A DNA stretch of 60,064 nt from a bacterium (GCA_030149525.1 JASBRJ010000167.1:1-60064), one strand, 5' to 3'; counted from the stretch's first letter, positions 6,218-41,716 are shown. A program made the numbers and translations. The notes: generated by a model not told the origin, from the letters alone.

Positions 6218-7358
6218 CGTAGAAACCCTGGGAGACCACGGTGAAGACTCGGTCATCGGTGGCAGCGATGTCGAAGCCACGGATCTCTAGATTGTCTTTG
6301 AAGCTTGAGATCATCTCCGGTTCGCCCCATTTGCCTTTCTTCTGTCCTACATACCAGAGCTCGAAAGCTCCTTTGACCGGGCGAAGGAGGGCCACGTGGA
6401 GGTTCTTGTCCTCATCCATGTCGCTTTCCATGAGAACGTTGGAAGTGGAGAAAGGAAGCTTGACCGACTGACTGTCCGACTTCCAGCTGGTATCGTTACT
6501 GGTGTAGGCTTCCAGTCCGTCGCCGACTCCTACGGCCAACCGAGAGGGCCCGTAGGGGCGGCTGGCCACGGAAAAGCAATTGTTGTAGCTGCCGCGTAAG
6601 AAGGTAACACCCTCTTCGATCTTTCCGATCAGTCCTTTGACGTAAGCGGTGGAGAGCCCCGCTCCATTGTTGAAGACTACGGAGAAGCCTTTCTTGCCTA
6701 GGGTTCCTACTTCGGTTCGGTCGGCGCCGTTGGCCACCTGTCCTACCAGCACCCCCTGAGGTCTAAGACTTGAGGAGATGTCGAAGTTGGCAGCCCTTAC
6801 GTTGCCGTACTCGCGGATCCAACTCAAGGCAAACTCCGGGCGATTAGAACCCTGCCGGCCTTCAATGGCAACAGCCGTACCACCGGTTTTTTCGGCATTG
6901 TAAGAGTCGATCTCCACGGTGTTGCTCCAACTCCATCCTTGATCGGAAGAAACGGCAAGAAGAACTTCGTAGGCGTCGTTGCCCTGTCTGAGGGTTCGCT
7001 GGAAGAGAAGTCCCATGAGGTTCCGTGTTTTGCCCAGGGCGATCTTTCTCACCCGGCCCTTGTTTTTACCAAAGAAAGGGGCGCGAGGATCATTCCACTG
7101 CGTGTCTCCACCGTCGATGTGGGTGTGAAAAATCTCCGGAGTTCCGATGTCGTCGGTGGTACCACTCCAAATCATGTGAACTCGAGAACCCATAGCCAAG
7201 AGGCGCGGCTCCATGAAAAGCCCTTTGCCCGTATTGGGGCGAGGCAATTTCGTCCAAGAAGGATGGAGGCGACTCTCTTCCTCGGCCTGGCCTAAAACCG
7301 GGCCGAGGCTCAGGGCCAGAAGAGTGAAAAGACAGATCAGATATTTGGGCAGTGACAT
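6189..7358 (-). CDS. Secreted sialidase-like beta-propeller protein, function unknown
   Basis: Protein of 389 residues with a clear signal peptide (hydrophobic core LICLFTLLALSLGPVLG, cleavage likely near residue 24). One canonical Asp-box (SSDQGWSW, about 137-144) and repeated strand patterns such as HMIWSGTT and FALSWIREYG suggest a BNR/sialidase-type propeller. I do not see the arginine triad or a convincing catalytic set, so enzymatic activity is not supported. It is probably an exported binding or scaffold protein. The gene converges on the phosphodiesterase gene with a 29-base overlap of coding ends. Confidence 0.7.
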   Translation of the reverse strand: MSLPKYLICLFTLLALSLGPVLGQAEEESRLHPSWTKLPRPNTGKGLFMEPRLLAMGSRVHMIWSGTTDDIGTPEIFHTHIDGGDTQWNDPRAPFFGKNKGRVRKIALGKTRNLMGLLFQRTLRQGNDAYEVLLAVSSDQGWSWSNTVEIDSYNAEKTGGTAVAIEGRQGSNRPEFALSWIREYGNVRAANFDISSSLRPQGVLVGQVANGADRTEVGTLGKKGFSVVFNNGAGLSTAYVKGLIGKIEEGVTFLRGSYNNCFSVASRPYGPSRLAVGVGDGLEAYTSNDTSWKSDSQSVKLPFSTSNVLMESDMDEDKNLHVALLRPVKGAFELWYVGQKKGKWGEPEMISSFKDNLEIRGFDIAATDDRVFTVVSQGFYAKFFRKDLK

Positions 7359-32397: not shown

Positions 32398-32414
32398 GTA
32401 ACAAAGAGTTAACC
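32398..32414 (+). promoter_or_regulatory. Candidate PhoP/PhoB-like direct repeat upstream of the GH13 gene
   Basis: GTAACA at 32398 and TTAACC at 32409 are separated by exactly 11 bases start to start. Two similar and better repeats occur at 38251 and 41158. OmpR-family regulators such as B. subtilis PhoP bind TT(A/C/T)A(C/T)A units at 11-base spacing. A TACATT at 32435 could be the -10 element, which would place transcription start almost at the ATG (32447), where no clear ribosome-binding site is seen. This copy is the weakest of the three. Confidence 0.4.
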
Positions 32415-32446: not shown

Positions 32447-35332
32447 ATGAAGGTCCGTTTATCTAACAATCAGTTCATCTCTCAGAAGAAATCCTCGGCA
32501 AAACAGACTATAACATTCGAGGTAGACGCCCGTTCACTTCAAAATACCGATTCGGTCAGCCTGAAAGGCTCCTTCGATCCCGCCACCGGTCTCTTCGACC
32601 CAAAGTGGAATGAAGGCAAAAGTCTTCCCATGCGGGATGACGGCAAGGGCGGCGATCGACAGGCCAACGACGGAATTTTTACGCGCCAGGTCCAACTCGA
32701 TGGTTCCAACGGAAAAGACTTCTGGTGGGGCGCCGAAGACGGCAAGGGCCGTTATTTGGTGACGACCGAGGGTGATCCTCGGGTCACTCTTAATGACAAG
32801 GACGGACAAACCGCTCGTCTGGCGCCCCTGCAACTCGATCATTACGGACTTCAAGAGCACAACGGGGCAGCCTCAGTGACCGCCTGGTCTCCCTCGGCAA
32901 AGGCTATGAGCCTGGAGCTTTTCGACAGTCACGGAAAAAAAGTCGGGGAGCGTCCGCTCACCCGCGATAACAGTGGCGTGGCCGGCACCGAGAATGACTG
33001 GACCGTCGATCTGGGAGCCTCCAAAAAAGACCTCGATGGATTCTCGTACCTTTTAAAAGAGATCGATGCCAACGGCAAAGAAACGAGATATATCGACCCC
33101 TTTGCTCGGAAGCTGGTGGGTCAGCAAAAAGGACTTGAGCGAATTTTCGTGGACCCCATCGGCGGCTTCGAAACCGGCTGGTACGACGACTCGGGTAAGG
33201 GAGGTCCGAACTACGCGGACAACCTTCAAATGGGCCGTTTCAGTGTCGATGGTGCCCAGGGTGCCGACGAAATGTTTCTTGTTCTCAAGGACAAGAACGG
33301 CAACCCTTTGTCCAAGCAGCAGCTGCAGAGTCGTTTGGGTGAGGTGGGATTCACCTCCTATGAAAACGCACGGCCGGAAGACCGACGCGACTTCGACGTT
33401 CTCACCAACTGGCAACTGGCCAACAGCCCTTCCATCGAACCGTATGTCACCAGCGACGAGATCACCCAGGACGGCAAGATTCCCCTGCGCCGCGTTGAGG
33501 AAAAGACCGGTGACGGCGGCTGGATGGGCGTTGTTCATAATTTTGGCGCCCTGGAAGGCCTCAAGTACGAATTTCATGGCTACAAGAACGGTCAGTTGGT
33601 CGCCGACAAGAATGGCAACGGCGCTCTTGAGCCTGAGGAACTGAAGGCCACGGTCTACAACGAGAAGGAGAACGAGATCTCTCCCCGGCCAGGATCGGCA
33701 CGCCGCGCTTTGATTTCCGATTTCGATTATCAACCCCGTCACTTCGACAAGCCTCGCCTGGAATCCGACCCGCTCAAGCAGGTTATCTACGAAGCGCATG
33801 TAGGGTCGTTTTTGACGGCACCTGAGAACCCTATTCAGGCGACCTTCGAAGACCTCACCGAGCGTCTGGACTATTTCATCGATCTGGGAGCCACCGCTCT
33901 GGAACTGATGCCGACCTCGGAATTCGGGGGCAAAAAAGACTGGGGATACACGACCGATCACTACTTTGCCGGCGCCGACGGTTACGGATTCAGCATCCCC
34001 GCCGCCAAAGCCCGGGAGGAAGGACTGCTTCCGGCCGATTCTCCCCACGCACCGGATGAAGAAGTCTTCGTCAACGGTACCGACGCGGTGAAGTGGTTTG
34101 TCGACAAAGCGCATGAGCGAGGGCTCAACGTCTACGGCGACGTGGTCTACAACCATGCCTCCGGCAAGGCCGACGGCGATAACCCTCTTAACAGTATAGG
34201 TGGCGAGAACTCCGACTTCTTCCGCTGGCCCGACGGTCACTTTCATGAGACCCCTTGGGGACGCAAGCCCGACTTCGCCGACCCCTTCGTGAAGCAGTTC
34301 TTCACCGATCACGCCGCCTCACAGCTGGTAGAATACGGTTTCGACGGTCTGCGCTTTGACTTCACTCAGGTTCTTCACAACACGGGTGACGATTTCCAAC
34401 GCAACGCCGGACAGGAAACCCTCCGGCAGATCCAACGTGGCATGGAATTGGTTCGCCCCGGCAACTACTCTGTGGCGGAAGACTTTTCGGGCGACCCCAT
34501 GGTGGCCACAGAGCTTGGCAAATCTCGCTGGGACGGAACCTTCGAGCGAAAAGGTATGGGATTCGACGCCGTCTGGAACGACCGGTTTCGCGACGACCTT
34601 TTTCACGCTGTCGAAGGCAAGCCCGGTGCCGCCGACCGTCTGATGGACGCCCTGCTCGGCCATCACGGCGTTCCCAGTTGGAACAACGGTGTTCTGTACG
34701 CTCACTCCCACGATGAAGTGGGCAATAGCGGTGAGTGGTTGGGTCGCGGAGCCGCCGGGACCAAAGCCGACGAAGGCGTTCTCTCGGAATTGCCTCGGGC
34801 TAAAGCTCGCACCGGTGCGGCTTTGACTCTTCTCGGTCCCGGGGTGCCCATGCTTTGGCAGGGTGAAGAGTTTCTGGCTAACAACGACTTCAAACATGGC
34901 TTGACCACCACCTGGGGACAGGATACCAAGTGGTTGGAGGGTACGGATGAAGAGAAGGCTACCGCCGTTTCTCAGTCGCGTAAAGGCCATCATCGCCTTT
35001 ATCGAGACCTTATCAACCTCCGGAAGACCTCCGACGCGTTCTTGCCTGGAGCGCCCATCAGCAGAGTCCTCACCCATAACGACGATCGCGTTATCGGATT
35101 CCGCAGAGATTCCGCCGACGGCAAGGATAGCTTCCTCGTCTTCAGTCACCTCGGCGACGGTCAGCGGGACGGGTATCCTGTGCAGCTACCCCCGGGTGAA
35201 TGGAAAGAAGTTTTCAATACCGACGCCGAGTACTACGGTGGCGACAATGTGGGCAACGGTGGAGCGACCCTGGCAGGCTCTGCCGATATGACCCTGCCTG
35301 CGGGCGGCACCGTTGTGTTCAAGAAGGTCTAG
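32447..35332 (+). CDS. GH13 alpha-glucan enzyme (branching-enzyme/maltooligosyl-trehalose hydrolase-like)
   Basis: Protein of 961 residues. Catalytic regions of GH13 are present: DVVYNHAS (about 565), GLRFDFTQ with the Asp nucleophile (about 637), AEDF with the acid/base Glu (about 678) and AHSHDEVGN (about 753). The histidine-aspartate-glutamate form HDE in place of NHD is found in branching enzymes and their relatives. About 370 residues precede the barrel and include beta-rich carbohydrate-binding-like segments (SLKGSFDPATGLFDPKW, VTAWSPSAKAMSLELFD). There is no signal peptide; the first 20 residues are polar (Asn, Gln, Ser, Lys). An EF-hand-like stretch DKNGNGALEPEEL lies near residue 388. 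Likely role: glycogen or storage-glucan metabolism, or export by an unknown route. Confidence 0.85.
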   Translation: MKVRLSNNQFISQKKSSAKQTITFEVDARSLQNTDSVSLKGSFDPATGLFDPKWNEGKSLPMRDDGKGGDRQANDGIFTRQVQLDGSNGKDFWWGAEDGKGRYLVTTEGDPRVTLNDKDGQTARLAPLQLDHYGLQEHNGAASVTAWSPSAKAMSLELFDSHGKKVGERPLTRDNSGVAGTENDWTVDLGASKKDLDGFSYLLKEIDANGKETRYIDPFARKLVGQQKGLERIFVDPIGGFETGWYDDSGKGGPNYADNLQMGRFSVDGAQGADEMFLVLKDKNGNPLSKQQLQSRLGEVGFTSYENARPEDRRDFDVLTNWQLANSPSIEPYVTSDEITQDGKIPLRRVEEKTGDGGWMGVVHNFGALEGLKYEFHGYKNGQLVADKNGNGALEPEELKATVYNEKENEISPRPGSARRALISDFDYQPRHFDKPRLESDPLKQVIYEAHVGSFLTAPENPIQATFEDLTERLDYFIDLGATALELMPTSEFGGKKDWGYTTDHYFAGADGYGFSIPAAKAREEGLLPADSPHAPDEEVFVNGTDAVKWFVDKAHERGLNVYGDVVYNHASGKADGDNPLNSIGGENSDFFRWPDGHFHETPWGRKPDFADPFVKQFFTDHAASQLVEYGFDGLRFDFTQVLHNTGDDFQRNAGQETLRQIQRGMELVRPGNYSVAEDFSGDPMVATELGKSRWDGTFERKGMGFDAVWNDRFRDDLFHAVEGKPGAADRLMDALLGHHGVPSWNNGVLYAHSHDEVGNSGEWLGRGAAGTKADEGVLSELPRAKARTGAALTLLGPGVPMLWQGEEFLANNDFKHGLTTTWGQDTKWLEGTDEEKATAVSQSRKGHHRLYRDLINLRKTSDAFLPGAPISRVLTHNDDRVIGFRRDSADGKDSFLVFSHLGDGQRDGYPVQLPPGEWKEVFNTDAEYYGGDNVGNGGATLAGSADMTLPAGGTVVFKKV

Positions 35333-38250: not shown

Positions 38251-38278
38251 TTTACAAAAAGTTAACATGAAGTTAGCA
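38251..38278 (+). promoter_or_regulatory. Three-unit 11-base direct repeat, PhoP/PhoB-like operator
   Basis: TTTACA (38251), TTAACA (38262) and TTAGCA (38273) repeat with an exact 11-base period, that is one helical turn, as in operators of OmpR-family response regulators. A TATAGT at 38311 followed by GGAGG and the ATG at 38342 gives a plausible -10 and leader. The same pair of units occurs at 41158 with nearly the same distance (44 and 45 bases) to a TATAGT/CATAGT box. Confidence 0.55.
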
Positions 38279-38341
38279 TTCATGTAGTCGTAAGAAGCGG
38301 AAGCATCCGATATAGTAGGTTTAAAGCAAGGAGGCTAGAGT

Positions 38342-39940
38342 ATGTTTGGAATGGGTAGTATCGGTAACTTTCTACCGATGCTCGGATCGATAGGATCCGG
38401 CTTTGGCGGCGGCGGACTATTAAGTCTTGGCTTCACATTACTTTCCGGGCTCATCACCAACATCGGTTCGCCCAGGAACCCCGGTTTTGAGAATTTTGCC
38501 AGTCACCCCGGCTTCAATAATAACGACGTTCATCCGGGCTTCGGCACCATGGGAGGCGGCCCCAACGCTGCCACCGTAGGCTCTGCTGCAGGCTACTTCG
38601 GGAACGCTTACTCCAGCGATTATTCCATCCTCCCTCAGACCCCCTCGGGGCAGTATTATGGAAACGCCGGCTACTCTTACGGTAACCACGGGGTGACCTA
38701 CTCACCGAATCAACCTGTTTCTTACAGCAATCATCACTACGGAAACAGTGTGACAAATTTGCAGTTCGGTGGAAATTTCGGCGGCTACATGGACAGCTAT
38801 AATTCCGTCGTCCTCCCGCAAGCTCCATTCTTCCCTTCCTATCAGCACGGTCAGAACCACGCGATGTACGGAAGCGCCCCCGCACCCTACCAGCAGAGCT
38901 ACAGCCCGGTTATGAACCACTACGGCTTCGGCTCGCCCCAACAATACAATCCAGCGGCTACGCTCTACGGTCACCAGAACGGTTCGGTGAAGATGACTTA
39001 CGGTCAGCCTCACTACAACACGACCTACGGCGGGCCCCAGGGCGGCGATAAGGTCGTGCATCACCACCACCATCATCACGTTCACCTGCATGTTCACGAG
39101 CAAGAAGCTCAGAATCCCCCCGCCGACGGTCAGAACAAAGACTACGGGAAGACCACGGAAACTCCAACCGAAAACAAAACAGCTTACACCAAGCCGGAAA
39201 CCAAGCAACAGAAAACCGAGACGGAGCAAAAGTACTCCACGGCCACGGATTACACCGACACGGAAACCGATGTTGCTTATGAGAGTCCTAAGACTCCCAA
39301 GGCGCCGGAAACACCTCCCAACAATTATCAACCTCAAGTGCCCGATCCGGACTGCCCTCCCGGTCACGAGCCCAACGCTTACGCCCCCGAACCACAAGTG
39401 CAAGCTCCCGGTCCCTTCGACCAGATCGGCTTCGGAGGTATGAATGCGGCTGGAGCAACGGCTCAAGCCGTCACAGCCCACCAGACAACTTTCGGCAGAG
39501 TTCCCCATGTCAATACCGACGCTGAATGGGGGCAAGCCTCTCGTGCGGTGGCCGAACGGATCACCGGCGGCGACTCCGGCCAATACCACTTTGGTGGCCG
39601 CGACCCCAGAGTGAACTGGGACGGCATGGGTCCTGAGCGAAACGCTGTCTGGCATGTCTTTCAACAGAATGAGACTCTTCGTTTCGACGCTTCCAGCGGA
39701 CAGTTTTACGAAACCAAGTCCGACGGCAGCAAAGTCGACATGTTCCACATCTCTTCCGTGTCCAGCATAGAGCGGCAAGCTGGAGGCGATCACCGCTACG
39801 CTTTCGAGATGGTGGGAGATTTCCTCAACAACCGAGGACTTGGAGCCCCTAACATGAACGTAGGGGTAGGCACGACCAATGTTAGAACACCAGAATCAAC
39901 CATTATCCGCCAGCCGGTCACCGCGCCCGGATTCGGCTAG
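38342..39940 (+). CDS. Low-complexity Tyr/Asn/Gly/His-rich protein with a seven-histidine tract
   Basis: Protein of 532 residues that I do not recognise. Residues 1-45 are Gly/Leu-rich and hydrophobic (GSIGNFLPMLGSIGSG, GLLSLGFTLLSGLI). Three spaced (N/H)PGF motifs follow (about 45-67). Residues about 80-235 are rich in Tyr, Asn, Gly, Ser and Gln, a prion-like composition. A tract of seven His is continued by VHLHVH (codons 39059-39097). Then comes a Thr/Lys/Glu/Pro-rich linker (about 255-340) and a folded C-terminal region (about 385-515, RAVAERITGGDSGQYHFGGR, NAVWHVFQQNETLRFDASSG). No classical signal peptide. GGAGG lies nine bases before the ATG. It is preceded by the direct-repeat element and is likely regulated by it. 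Confidence 0.75.
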   Translation: MFGMGSIGNFLPMLGSIGSGFGGGGLLSLGFTLLSGLITNIGSPRNPGFENFASHPGFNNNDVHPGFGTMGGGPNAATVGSAAGYFGNAYSSDYSILPQTPSGQYYGNAGYSYGNHGVTYSPNQPVSYSNHHYGNSVTNLQFGGNFGGYMDSYNSVVLPQAPFFPSYQHGQNHAMYGSAPAPYQQSYSPVMNHYGFGSPQQYNPAATLYGHQNGSVKMTYGQPHYNTTYGGPQGGDKVVHHHHHHHVHLHVHEQEAQNPPADGQNKDYGKTTETPTENKTAYTKPETKQQKTETEQKYSTATDYTDTETDVAYESPKTPKAPETPPNNYQPQVPDPDCPPGHEPNAYAPEPQVQAPGPFDQIGFGGMNAAGATAQAVTAHQTTFGRVPHVNTDAEWGQASRAVAERITGGDSGQYHFGGRDPRVNWDGMGPERNAVWHVFQQNETLRFDASSGQFYETKSDGSKVDMFHISSVSSIERQAGGDHRYAFEMVGDFLNNRGLGAPNMNVGVGTTNVRTPESTIIRQPVTAPGFG

Positions 39941-39961
39941 AAACCAAACGAGGAACTCCCT

Positions 39962-40570
39962 CTGAGTTCCAAACCTTATAAAAGCCCTAAGGTCGAGTTC
40001 GTCACAAGCGCACCCGACCTTAGCTTTTGTCCAGATTTAGGGGGCAAGCCGGAGTTTGCTCTGCTGGGGCGATCCAACGTTGGAAAGAGTTCTTTCATTA
40101 ATAAGCTCACCAAACGTAAGCGGATCGCTCATACCAGCAATACACCCGGTAAGACCCGTCTGCTGAACTATTACCTCATCGACGACGCCTGGGCCCTGGT
40201 GGATTTGCCGGGCTACGGATTCGCCAAGGTCTCCAAGAAAGAGCAGGCGCGTTGGCGCAAGGCGCTCGAAGAGTATCTCTCTCAACGTGAGTCGTTGTTG
40301 GGAGTTCTTCAGTTGATCGACGGTCGCCACGGTCCTCAAAAGAACGACATCGAGATGAACCGTTGGGTCTTAGAAGCCGGTCTTCCGGCCGCTATCGTGA
40401 TCACCAAGGCGGATAAGGCGAAGAAGTCGACCCATCAGAAGACGCTCGCTGAAACCCGAAAAGCTGTCTCCTCGGCTCGAGGATACTATCTCTTTTCTGC
40501 TGAGACGGGATTTGGGGCCGAGGAGATATGGCACGCTCTCAAGGACTGGCGCAAGGCTCCCGACGGATGA
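39962..40570 (+). CDS. engB: Ribosome-biogenesis GTPase EngB (YihA/YsxC), apparent CTG start
   Basis: GTPase of about 202 residues needed for large-subunit assembly. G1 is GRSNVGKSS, G2 has the TSNTPGKT segment, G3 is VDLPGYGFAK, G4 is TKAD and G5 is FSAETG. The frame is open from the stop of the previous gene, but contains no ATG, GTG or TTG before the G1 loop. The conserved N-terminus KVEFVTSAPDL must be translated, so the start lies upstream of it. CTG at 39962 is preceded by GAGGA at a proper distance and gives a normal length. The first in-frame GTG (40199) would delete the P-loop. CTG is therefore my inferred start. Confidence 0.9.
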   Translation: MSSKPYKSPKVEFVTSAPDLSFCPDLGGKPEFALLGRSNVGKSSFINKLTKRKRIAHTSNTPGKTRLLNYYLIDDAWALVDLPGYGFAKVSKKEQARWRKALEEYLSQRESLLGVLQLIDGRHGPQKNDIEMNRWVLEAGLPAAIVITKADKAKKSTHQKTLAETRKAVSSARGYYLFSAETGFGAEEIWHALKDWRKAPDG

Positions 40571-41136
40571 AGTGCCTGCAATGTCAAACCGATAATCCGC
40601 CACGTTCCACCCGATGTCAAAAGTGTGGCTCGCCGCTGATCCCTGGAGCCGACGACCCGACGGCGTCCAGTGTCGGTTTGAAAGAGGGAGTCGATTATCC
40701 CCATCCCACCCATCACTACGACACAGAGCAGATCCTGGTGGCGAGGGAGTTGGTGGATGCTCTTCTCGAAGGTGAGGACTGTTTCGACGAGTTGGAAGAT
40801 CATCTCCACCAGATGAACGACAATTTCAAGCAGTTCGAGCAGCAGTACGCTGCCAACATGCAAAAAATGCTGGTCCAGGAAGCCGGCAAGCACCCCGAAG
40901 ATGATTACAACACCAAGCTATCCTACGTTCTCAGGACGGGGCTGAAGGTTTTCGACGAGGGCCAGCAGGCGTTCCGCACCTTTTTTGAGACCGAGTCCGA
41001 GGACGCCGACGAACTGGAAGCCGCTTTTCACAAGGTGAGAGACGGAAACGATTATGTTTGTCTGGCGCTTGAGATGGCTCAGCAGCGACTGGCCGAGTTG
41101 GAAGCCGTCATAGAAGCGCGTGAGTCCGAGGAGTAG
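40567..41136 (+). CDS. Zinc-ribbon protein with helical C-terminus
   Basis: Protein of 189 residues. The N-terminal MKCLQCQTDNPPRSTRCQKCG is a zinc-ribbon/double Cys-pair module. The rest is acidic and helical (ELVDALLEGEDCFDELEDHLHQMNDNFKQFEQQYA and a C-terminal coiled coil). Family unknown. The ATG at 40567 overlaps the engB stop (ATGA), which suggests coupled expression and maybe a role near the ribosome; the latter is inference only. Confidence 0.75.
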   Translation: MKCLQCQTDNPPRSTRCQKCGSPLIPGADDPTASSVGLKEGVDYPHPTHHYDTEQILVARELVDALLEGEDCFDELEDHLHQMNDNFKQFEQQYAANMQKMLVQEAGKHPEDDYNTKLSYVLRTGLKVFDEGQQAFRTFFETESEDADELEAAFHKVRDGNDYVCLALEMAQQRLAELEAVIEARESEE

Positions 41137-41157
41137 TTGGGCCGCTTTTTTCCGGAG

Positions 41158-41174
41158 TTTACATCCTTTTAACA
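41158..41174 (+). promoter_or_regulatory. Two-unit 11-base direct repeat, PhoP/PhoB-like operator
   Basis: TTTACA (41158) and TTAACA (41169) have the same sequence and spacing as the first two units at 38251. CATAGT at 41219 lies 45 bases after the last unit, against 44 at the other site. The element lies in the 112-base gap before the gene at 41249, which has its own strong ribosome-binding site. Confidence 0.5.
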
Positions 41175-41248
41175 CTAAGTCGCTCCCGTTCCCTCTCCGT
41201 CCCACATCTGTGGGTCATCATAGTGAAAATGAACAAGGAGAATTTCAA

Positions 41249-41716
41249 ATGGGACTTTTAAGTGGAGCCTTCAACGCCGTCAAAGGGGCGGCCCGCATCG
41301 CCACCGCACCGATTCGCACGGCGGGCAAAATTGCAGGGACCGGACTTGCCACGGCGGGTGGGGTTTTACAGAACGTCGCCGAGGGTGACTTATCCGGGGC
41401 AGCGCAAACAGCCAAGCAAGGTTTTAAGAGCCAGGTCGGCAACGTGGGCGGCTATTTCTCCGATCATGTTACCGGAGTGAAAGAGATCGCCGGTGGTCAT
41501 GTAGATTTCTTGAAAGGCGGAGTCGGTCTTATCGGCACACCCATTCAAGGCGCCGCTCGTCTTGCCGGTAACAGCCTCGCCTCTACGGGAAATGTGGTTT
41601 CCGAACTTGCCACCGGAGACTTCAAGGGACCCGGCCAAGCGTATTCTCAAGGGGTAGGAAATCAGTTTGGAATCCTGGGAGACACGGCTAAGCAGCAGTT
41701 GAATAATTTGGTTTAG
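41249..41716 (+). CDS. Gly/Ala-rich protein made of two internal repeats, function unknown
   Basis: Protein of 155 residues made of two copies of a unit of about 55 residues. In each, a T-P-I segment is followed by AG..LA..G.V, A.GD..G..Q and a GNVGG/GNQFG ending (compare AGTGLATAGGVLQNVAEGDLSG with AGNSLASTGNVVSELATGDFKG, about half identical). The composition (Gly, Ala, Val, small polar) and weak amphipathicity suggest membrane association or self-assembly. No signal peptide. I start at ATG 41249, preceded by AAGGAG; the frame is open further upstream but crosses the direct-repeat element. Not recognised. Confidence 0.72.
   Translation: MGLLSGAFNAVKGAARIATAPIRTAGKIAGTGLATAGGVLQNVAEGDLSGAAQTAKQGFKSQVGNVGGYFSDHVTGVKEIAGGHVDFLKGGVGLIGTPIQGAARLAGNSLASTGNVVSELATGDFKGPGQAYSQGVGNQFGILGDTAKQQLNNLV

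Follow-up and report, generated by a model that had tools for sequence, protein, structure and literature searches.

What recognizes the 11-bp-period direct repeat that precedes two unusual genes in the 60,064-nucleotide stretch of bacterial DNA analyzed here (the window), and what might the products of genes behind such repeats do together? The first copy is a putative operator of three units, TTTACA-N5-TTAACA-N5-TTAGCA, on the + strand at 38251..38278 (TTTACAAAAAGTTAACA at 38251-38267 and the third unit, TTAGCA, at 38273-38278), with a score of 23.9 on a matrix derived from the strong sites. It lies upstream of a + strand gene (38342..39940) for a 532-aa protein that consists of a Gly-rich hydrophobic N-terminus, a Tyr/His-rich low-complexity middle and a conserved C-terminal domain. 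Searches of Pfam and PHROG returned no match for this protein, and relatives occur in 8 other genomes of the same order. The second copy, TTTACA-N5-TTAACA (TTTACATCCTTTTAACA; 41158..41174, + strand; matrix score 27.7), has orthologous sites in the sister genus and precedes a + strand gene (41249..41716) for a 155-aa Gly/Ala-rich helical protein with an internal duplication. The structure of the latter, predicted without an alignment, contains three long helices (pLDDT 76), and fold comparison gave no convincing match. Both sites, including the third unit, stand where the first-pass annotation had placed them. The -10-like boxes that it had described are also present, TATAGT at 38311..38316 and CATAGT at 41219..41224 on the + strand, although they start 43 and 44 bp past TTAACA rather than at the 44 and 45 bp given earlier.

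A third, weaker copy (GTAACA-N5-TTAACC; 32398..32414, + strand) had been proposed before the gene at 32447, whose product carries the alpha-amylase domains of a glucan enzyme. We did not accept this copy as a member. Its matrix score of 6.9 is at background level, where scores of at least 6 are reached by ~525 forward sites versus 442 in the reversed control, and it differs by one mismatch from DTWACA-N5-DTWACA, a level at which 175 matches compare with 58 in the control, so that its sequence alone would allow either view. The copy is only 32 bp from the start codon, and a -10 box at the usual distance would thus lie within the coding sequence. Of the undescribed gene set suggested initially, the Tyr/His-rich and the duplicated Gly/Ala-rich proteins share the operator, whereas the glucan enzyme was not counted as a member. 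Some other sites, such as those of L074, L085 and L119, are separated from a start by 39-55 bp, and a second geometry may therefore exist. Eight loci (L051, L061, L062, L072, L074, L085, L103 and L119) form a possible second class of sites, TT(G/A/C)ACA-N5-TTAACA and similar, located ~39-55 bp before their genes. Several of the encoded proteins begin with sequences such as MNVT or MQIS, and a few contain a DxVxIS motif.

Genome-wide distribution and conservation of the repeat

From the window alone the motif cannot be shown to be real, because the 16 matches found in it with up to 3 mismatches equal the number in shuffled sequences (15.6). The genome-wide comparison with chance that had been called for earlier gives a different picture: the exact TTTACA-N5-TTAACA pair occurs 27 times in the 8.27-Mb genome, far above chance, versus once for the reversed pattern. 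When the spacer was varied from N1 to N12, 27 matches fell at N5 and the eleven other lengths together yielded 4. N5 alone is favored, as expected of a genuine operator whose units recur every 11 bp.

The surroundings of the sites were examined in about 1.3-1.5 Mb of DNA, in stretches that were chosen because they held sites. Although this DNA is ~92% coding, only 1 of the 26 strong sites tested is located inside a gene, and the other 25 are intergenic. A -10-like hexamer begins 39-48 bp past the site in 16 of 27 cases, compared with 4% of controls (p=8e-16), the controls being single half-sites that are likewise followed by a gene start. A smaller excess is found in the next 10 bp (6/27, p=0.008) and none in the other 10-bp bins. 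The spacing of TATAGT and CATAGT in the window is therefore a regulon-wide feature. Furthermore, a start codon preceded by a Shine-Dalgarno sequence lies 64-129 bp downstream of 19 of the 27 sites (control, 23%; p=2e-7), and three further strong sites (on C15, C368 and C356) are inverted relative to the gene that they serve.

The repeat is also retained at several orthologous promoters. The matrix scan detected a previously unlisted site, TTTACATTTTTATAACA (TTTACA-N5-ATAACA), 86 bp before a gene on C105 whose product is a paralogue of the 41249 protein (57% identity, nearly equal length). Orthologues of the 41249 gene in four sister-genus genomes carry TTAACA-N5-GTAACG or a close variant in a conserved block ~105 bp before the start, and in 3 of 7 relatives the promoters of this family contain no recognizable pair. 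The 38342 orthologue in the sister genome G002 is preceded by TTTACA-N5-GTAACC at -108. The second unit has thus changed from TTAACA to GTAAC(C/G) in the sister genus, which partly explains why the exact box is hardly enriched there (1-5 copies). The variant TTWACA-N5-GTAACS was rejected as a genome-wide motif of the sister genus, given its weak enrichment (1-4 copies versus 0-2 in the control); several of its copies do fall at orthologous promoters. In two sister genomes (L324 and L326), TTAACA-N5-GTAACG is located ~100 bp before an rpsT-like gene (ribosomal protein S20).

Could the repeat simply be a pair of AT-rich hexamers that happen to fall in promoters? The count inside the window equals the expectation of such an origin. 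However, the genome-wide excess, the single favored spacing, the fixed -10 distance and the conservation all stand against it, the spacing test rules it out, and we give it practically no credence. The existence of the regulon is well supported.

Target proteins and a second flagellar-type export cluster

The proteins encoded downstream of the sites mostly lack a family match, and they resemble one another in composition. Because the DNA had been fetched for holding sites, the neighboring genes were used as the control. Gly-rich proteins account for 14 of 48 targets versus 40 of 1377 neighbors, and Met-rich helices are found in 8 of 48 versus 11 of 1377, whereas a Sec-like N-terminus, assigned by a crude rule, is present in 2 of 48 targets versus 324 of 1377 neighbors. 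Seven targets share a module in which an amphipathic Met/Leu/Gln-rich helix is followed by GF/W-x-x-F-L-G-G. A regular expression for this helix module recovered six of the seven and no other match among 1419 called genes, and a six-frame profile search of the genome with the GFSSFLGG module ranked the same seven at the top, the next match having E=0.017. The profile search missed a further member, L059, which turned up via its upstream site. A second group of targets is characterized by NINI-type strings, Met-rich helices and Cys/Gly tails. Wall-hydrolase domains form the C-terminus of three of the ~50 targets, namely CHAP/Amidase_6 (L049), Peptidase_M23 (L098) and SLT+Amidase_3 (L078).

A phage origin of the targets was rejected, given that PHROG matches were very weak only. 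L059, which has no Pfam match, also belongs with L267, L263, L269, L261 and L266 to a set of proteins from three genera of the order. These combine a helix module of the GWxGxLGG type with a middle part of low complexity and a common C-terminal domain that contains 'TDVQTIGAIT'. At L093 (C49:1-14721), boxes on the - strand at 6892, 9974, 10878 and 11748 each lie 81-82 bp before a gene. The genes of this cluster are small and nearly identical (MINTNNGKVFAPHIQNKG...), apart from one that is unrelated.

One site heads a flagellar operon. In this genome, TTAATATTCTGTTAACA (TTAATA-N5-TTAACA) is located 99 bp upstream of flgB in the C267 operon flgB-flgC-fliE-fliF-fliG-fliG-fliH-fliI-fliJ, in which flgB and fliE were confirmed by NCBIfam and the remaining gene names were read from the sequences. 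In four sister-genus genomes, TTAACATACGAGTAACC or TTAACATAAGAGTAACC (TTAACA-N5-GTAACC) is found ~55 bp before flgB, the flgB frame having been read by eye in one of them (L329). The site in the sister genome G001 stands at the head of an unbroken cluster that runs from flgB to flhA, and in the stretch fetched from G003 the gene order is identical as far as the beginning of flhA. A small helical protein of 85 aa, encoded at the cluster's end in this genome, has an operator variant upstream of its gene, and an 81-aa helical protein occupies the same place after the G001 cluster. The flgB-to-flhA cluster contains no flagellin, cap or motor genes.

The genome encodes a second full-length flhA (on C177), which lies near fliD-, fliS- and motor-like genes and is without a box. 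At least two full-length flhA-type genes are present in each of five sister genomes, and two systems are therefore normal in these bacteria rather than a result of contamination. Both full-length export gates of this genome exceed the FlhA cut-off but not that of SctV, and an injectisome, the non-flagellar type III system, was rejected because the gates are of the FlhA rather than the SctV type. The nearest FlhA from a named source, a partial sequence in a rumen metagenome genome, shows 66% identity. Eight proteins of this genome (on C144, C176, C238, C30, C89, C83, C231 and C28) match FlhA (FHIPEP) only in part, mainly over the cytoplasmic half at its C-terminus. The sister-genus genomes contain 11-19 FHIPEP matches each, with many more partial ones than here, and the FlhA-C-like paralogues thus constitute a striking expansion. 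In both genera, a homocysteine-methyltransferase-like gene adjoins the flhA of the second cluster (L116:3933-5795 and L332/L333).

Candidate regulator and competing explanations

Which regulator would bind the box? Read as its reverse complement, TGTTAA-N5-TGTAAA, the motif conforms exactly to the WalR/YycF consensus TGT(A/T)A(A/T/C)-N5-TGT(A/T)A(A/T/C) (PMC5405149), which VicR shares (PMC3595261). In the fetched DNA, which is biased to sites, the corresponding TGTWAH-N5-TGTWAH box occurs 69 times versus 0 in the reversed control. The direct repeat with an 11-bp period shared by these unusual genes has the form of an OmpR-family operator, as the first-pass annotation had suggested. Given the exact match to the WalR/YycF consensus, the binder is likely to come from the WalR/MtrA/PhoB clade of OmpR-family response regulators, an assignment that is a reasoned guess rather than a finding. 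The search for a regulator gene, also suggested earlier, gave 22 matches to the OmpR-type DNA-binding domain in the genome, 16 of them in proteins of response-regulator size, and none could be tied to the box. An autoregulated regulator was rejected, as no good box lies directly before any of these 22 genes. Equivalog models were scored for one of the 22, the response regulator L236, whose gene is followed by a PAS-type-kinase-like gene. YycF scored highest (288 bits, cut-off 340), followed by MtrA (264 versus 300) and PhoB (253 versus 296).

Both window sites match DTWACA-N5-DTWACA, the reversed consensus of WalR/YycF (VicR) of the Bacillota, a member of the OmpR family, exactly, and a few peptidoglycan hydrolases are among the targets, as they are for WalR. 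The system described here differs from WalR/YycF in the fixed 39-48 bp to the -10 box, in having a flagellar operon as a target and in that the majority of its targets lack Sec signals and belong to no known family, many of them being rich in Gly or Met; moreover, the candidate L236 stays below the YycF equivalog cut-off. MtrA of the Actinomycetota recognizes repeated GTAAC units and controls cell-wall genes. These units resemble the sister-genus form TTAACA-N5-GTAACG, whereas the target set is different and L236 falls short of the MtrA cut-off. In Legionella, PmrA and CpxR place one box before many unrelated genes for Sec-less proteins, as is observed here, and their regulons serve the type IVB system and eukaryotic hosts. 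The machine linked to the box in the present case is, in contrast, a flagellar-type export cluster.

Regulation by phosphate, as first suggested for this locus, would require a PhoP/PhoB orthologue to bind the box at phosphate limitation and the targets to store or scavenge phosphate. The Pho box of B. subtilis PhoP/PhoB is built from TTHACA-type units with an 11-bp period. The repeat has the same unit type and period, and L236 also scores on the PhoB model; judged by sequence, however, the box fits WalR/YycF at least as well as PhoP. Phosphate transport or phosphatase genes (pst, phoU) were looked for among the targets and none was seen, the sole PhoU-domain match lies in a 539-aa frame that looks like a Na/Pi transporter fusion, and flagellar flgB is a target. 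A Pho regulon is accordingly very improbable in our assessment.

The flagellar operon itself suggests another explanation, in which the box belongs to a motility or cell-cycle regulon of the CtrA type and controls a second flagellum. The Gly/Met-rich proteins would then be structural accessories of that flagellum or of the envelope rather than exported cargo. CtrA of the Alphaproteobacteria controls flagellar operons through the box TTAA-N7-TTAA, with sites located mostly at -35 (PMC11264516). The TTwA-N7-TTAA within the repeat resembles that box, and the flgB operon is under the repeat in two genera. However, the repeat lies off -35, ~60 bp upstream of the start and with the -10 box 39-48 bp past it, its targets exceed the known flagellar parts by far in number and diversity and include wall hydrolases, and no CtrA-level regulator was identified. 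Taken as a whole, this explanation appears unlikely. Alternatively, the box may simply answer wall stress as part of a WalR-like envelope regulon whose targets act at the wall, with flgB as an incidental member and export by another route. The exact WalR box and the CHAP, M23 and SLT+amidase targets agree with such a regulon, as WalRK regulons contain peptidoglycan hydrolases (PMC4478028), but just three clear wall enzymes are seen in ~50 targets, the flgB site is kept across genera and a box is also found before the terminal gene of that cluster. We therefore regard this combination as rather doubtful.

A proposed regulon and a possible flagellum-derived export route

We propose that an OmpR-family response regulator, most probably a member of the WalR/MtrA/PhoB clade, uses TTTACA-N5-TTAACA as its operator. 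The phosphorylated regulator would occupy the two units, spaced by 11 bp, as a head-to-tail dimer ~50-65 bp before the transcription start. From there it would switch on a sigma-70-type promoter that has its -10 box 39-48 bp beyond the site. That it activates rather than represses is suggested by the upstream location of the site. A few sites would face the other way, and the regulon would comprise roughly 50-70 promoters. We consider this account, taken as a whole, to be probable.

The WalR-like regulon may also co-express a flagellum-derived export machine with its candidate substrates. We infer both the identity of the regulator and the export of the products, the latter on the basis of shared regulation, synteny and missing Sec signals; that the products leave via the second flagellar-type cluster is a possibility to which we attach roughly a third of our belief. 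It is similarly conceivable, although we advance it tentatively, that the second flagellum-derived machine is a dedicated secretion system in this family of large-genome bacteria and that one WalR-like operator switches on both the machine and its secretome. The latter would consist of dozens of Sec-less proteins assembled from helix modules rich in Met, linkers rich in Gly and C-terminal domains of various kinds, wall hydrolases among them. The peptidoglycan-hydrolase targets, together with the link to the flagellar-type export cluster, point to a role of the targets at the cell surface or outside the cell rather than in storage.

The box provides a DNA signature for a large regulon, not described before, in a little-known lineage, and it brings together dozens of proteins that have no other features in common. 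The link to the second cluster raises the question of whether flagellar machinery has been turned to general secretion, with a regulated cargo of its own. If so, such a secretion system would fall outside the known injectisomes.
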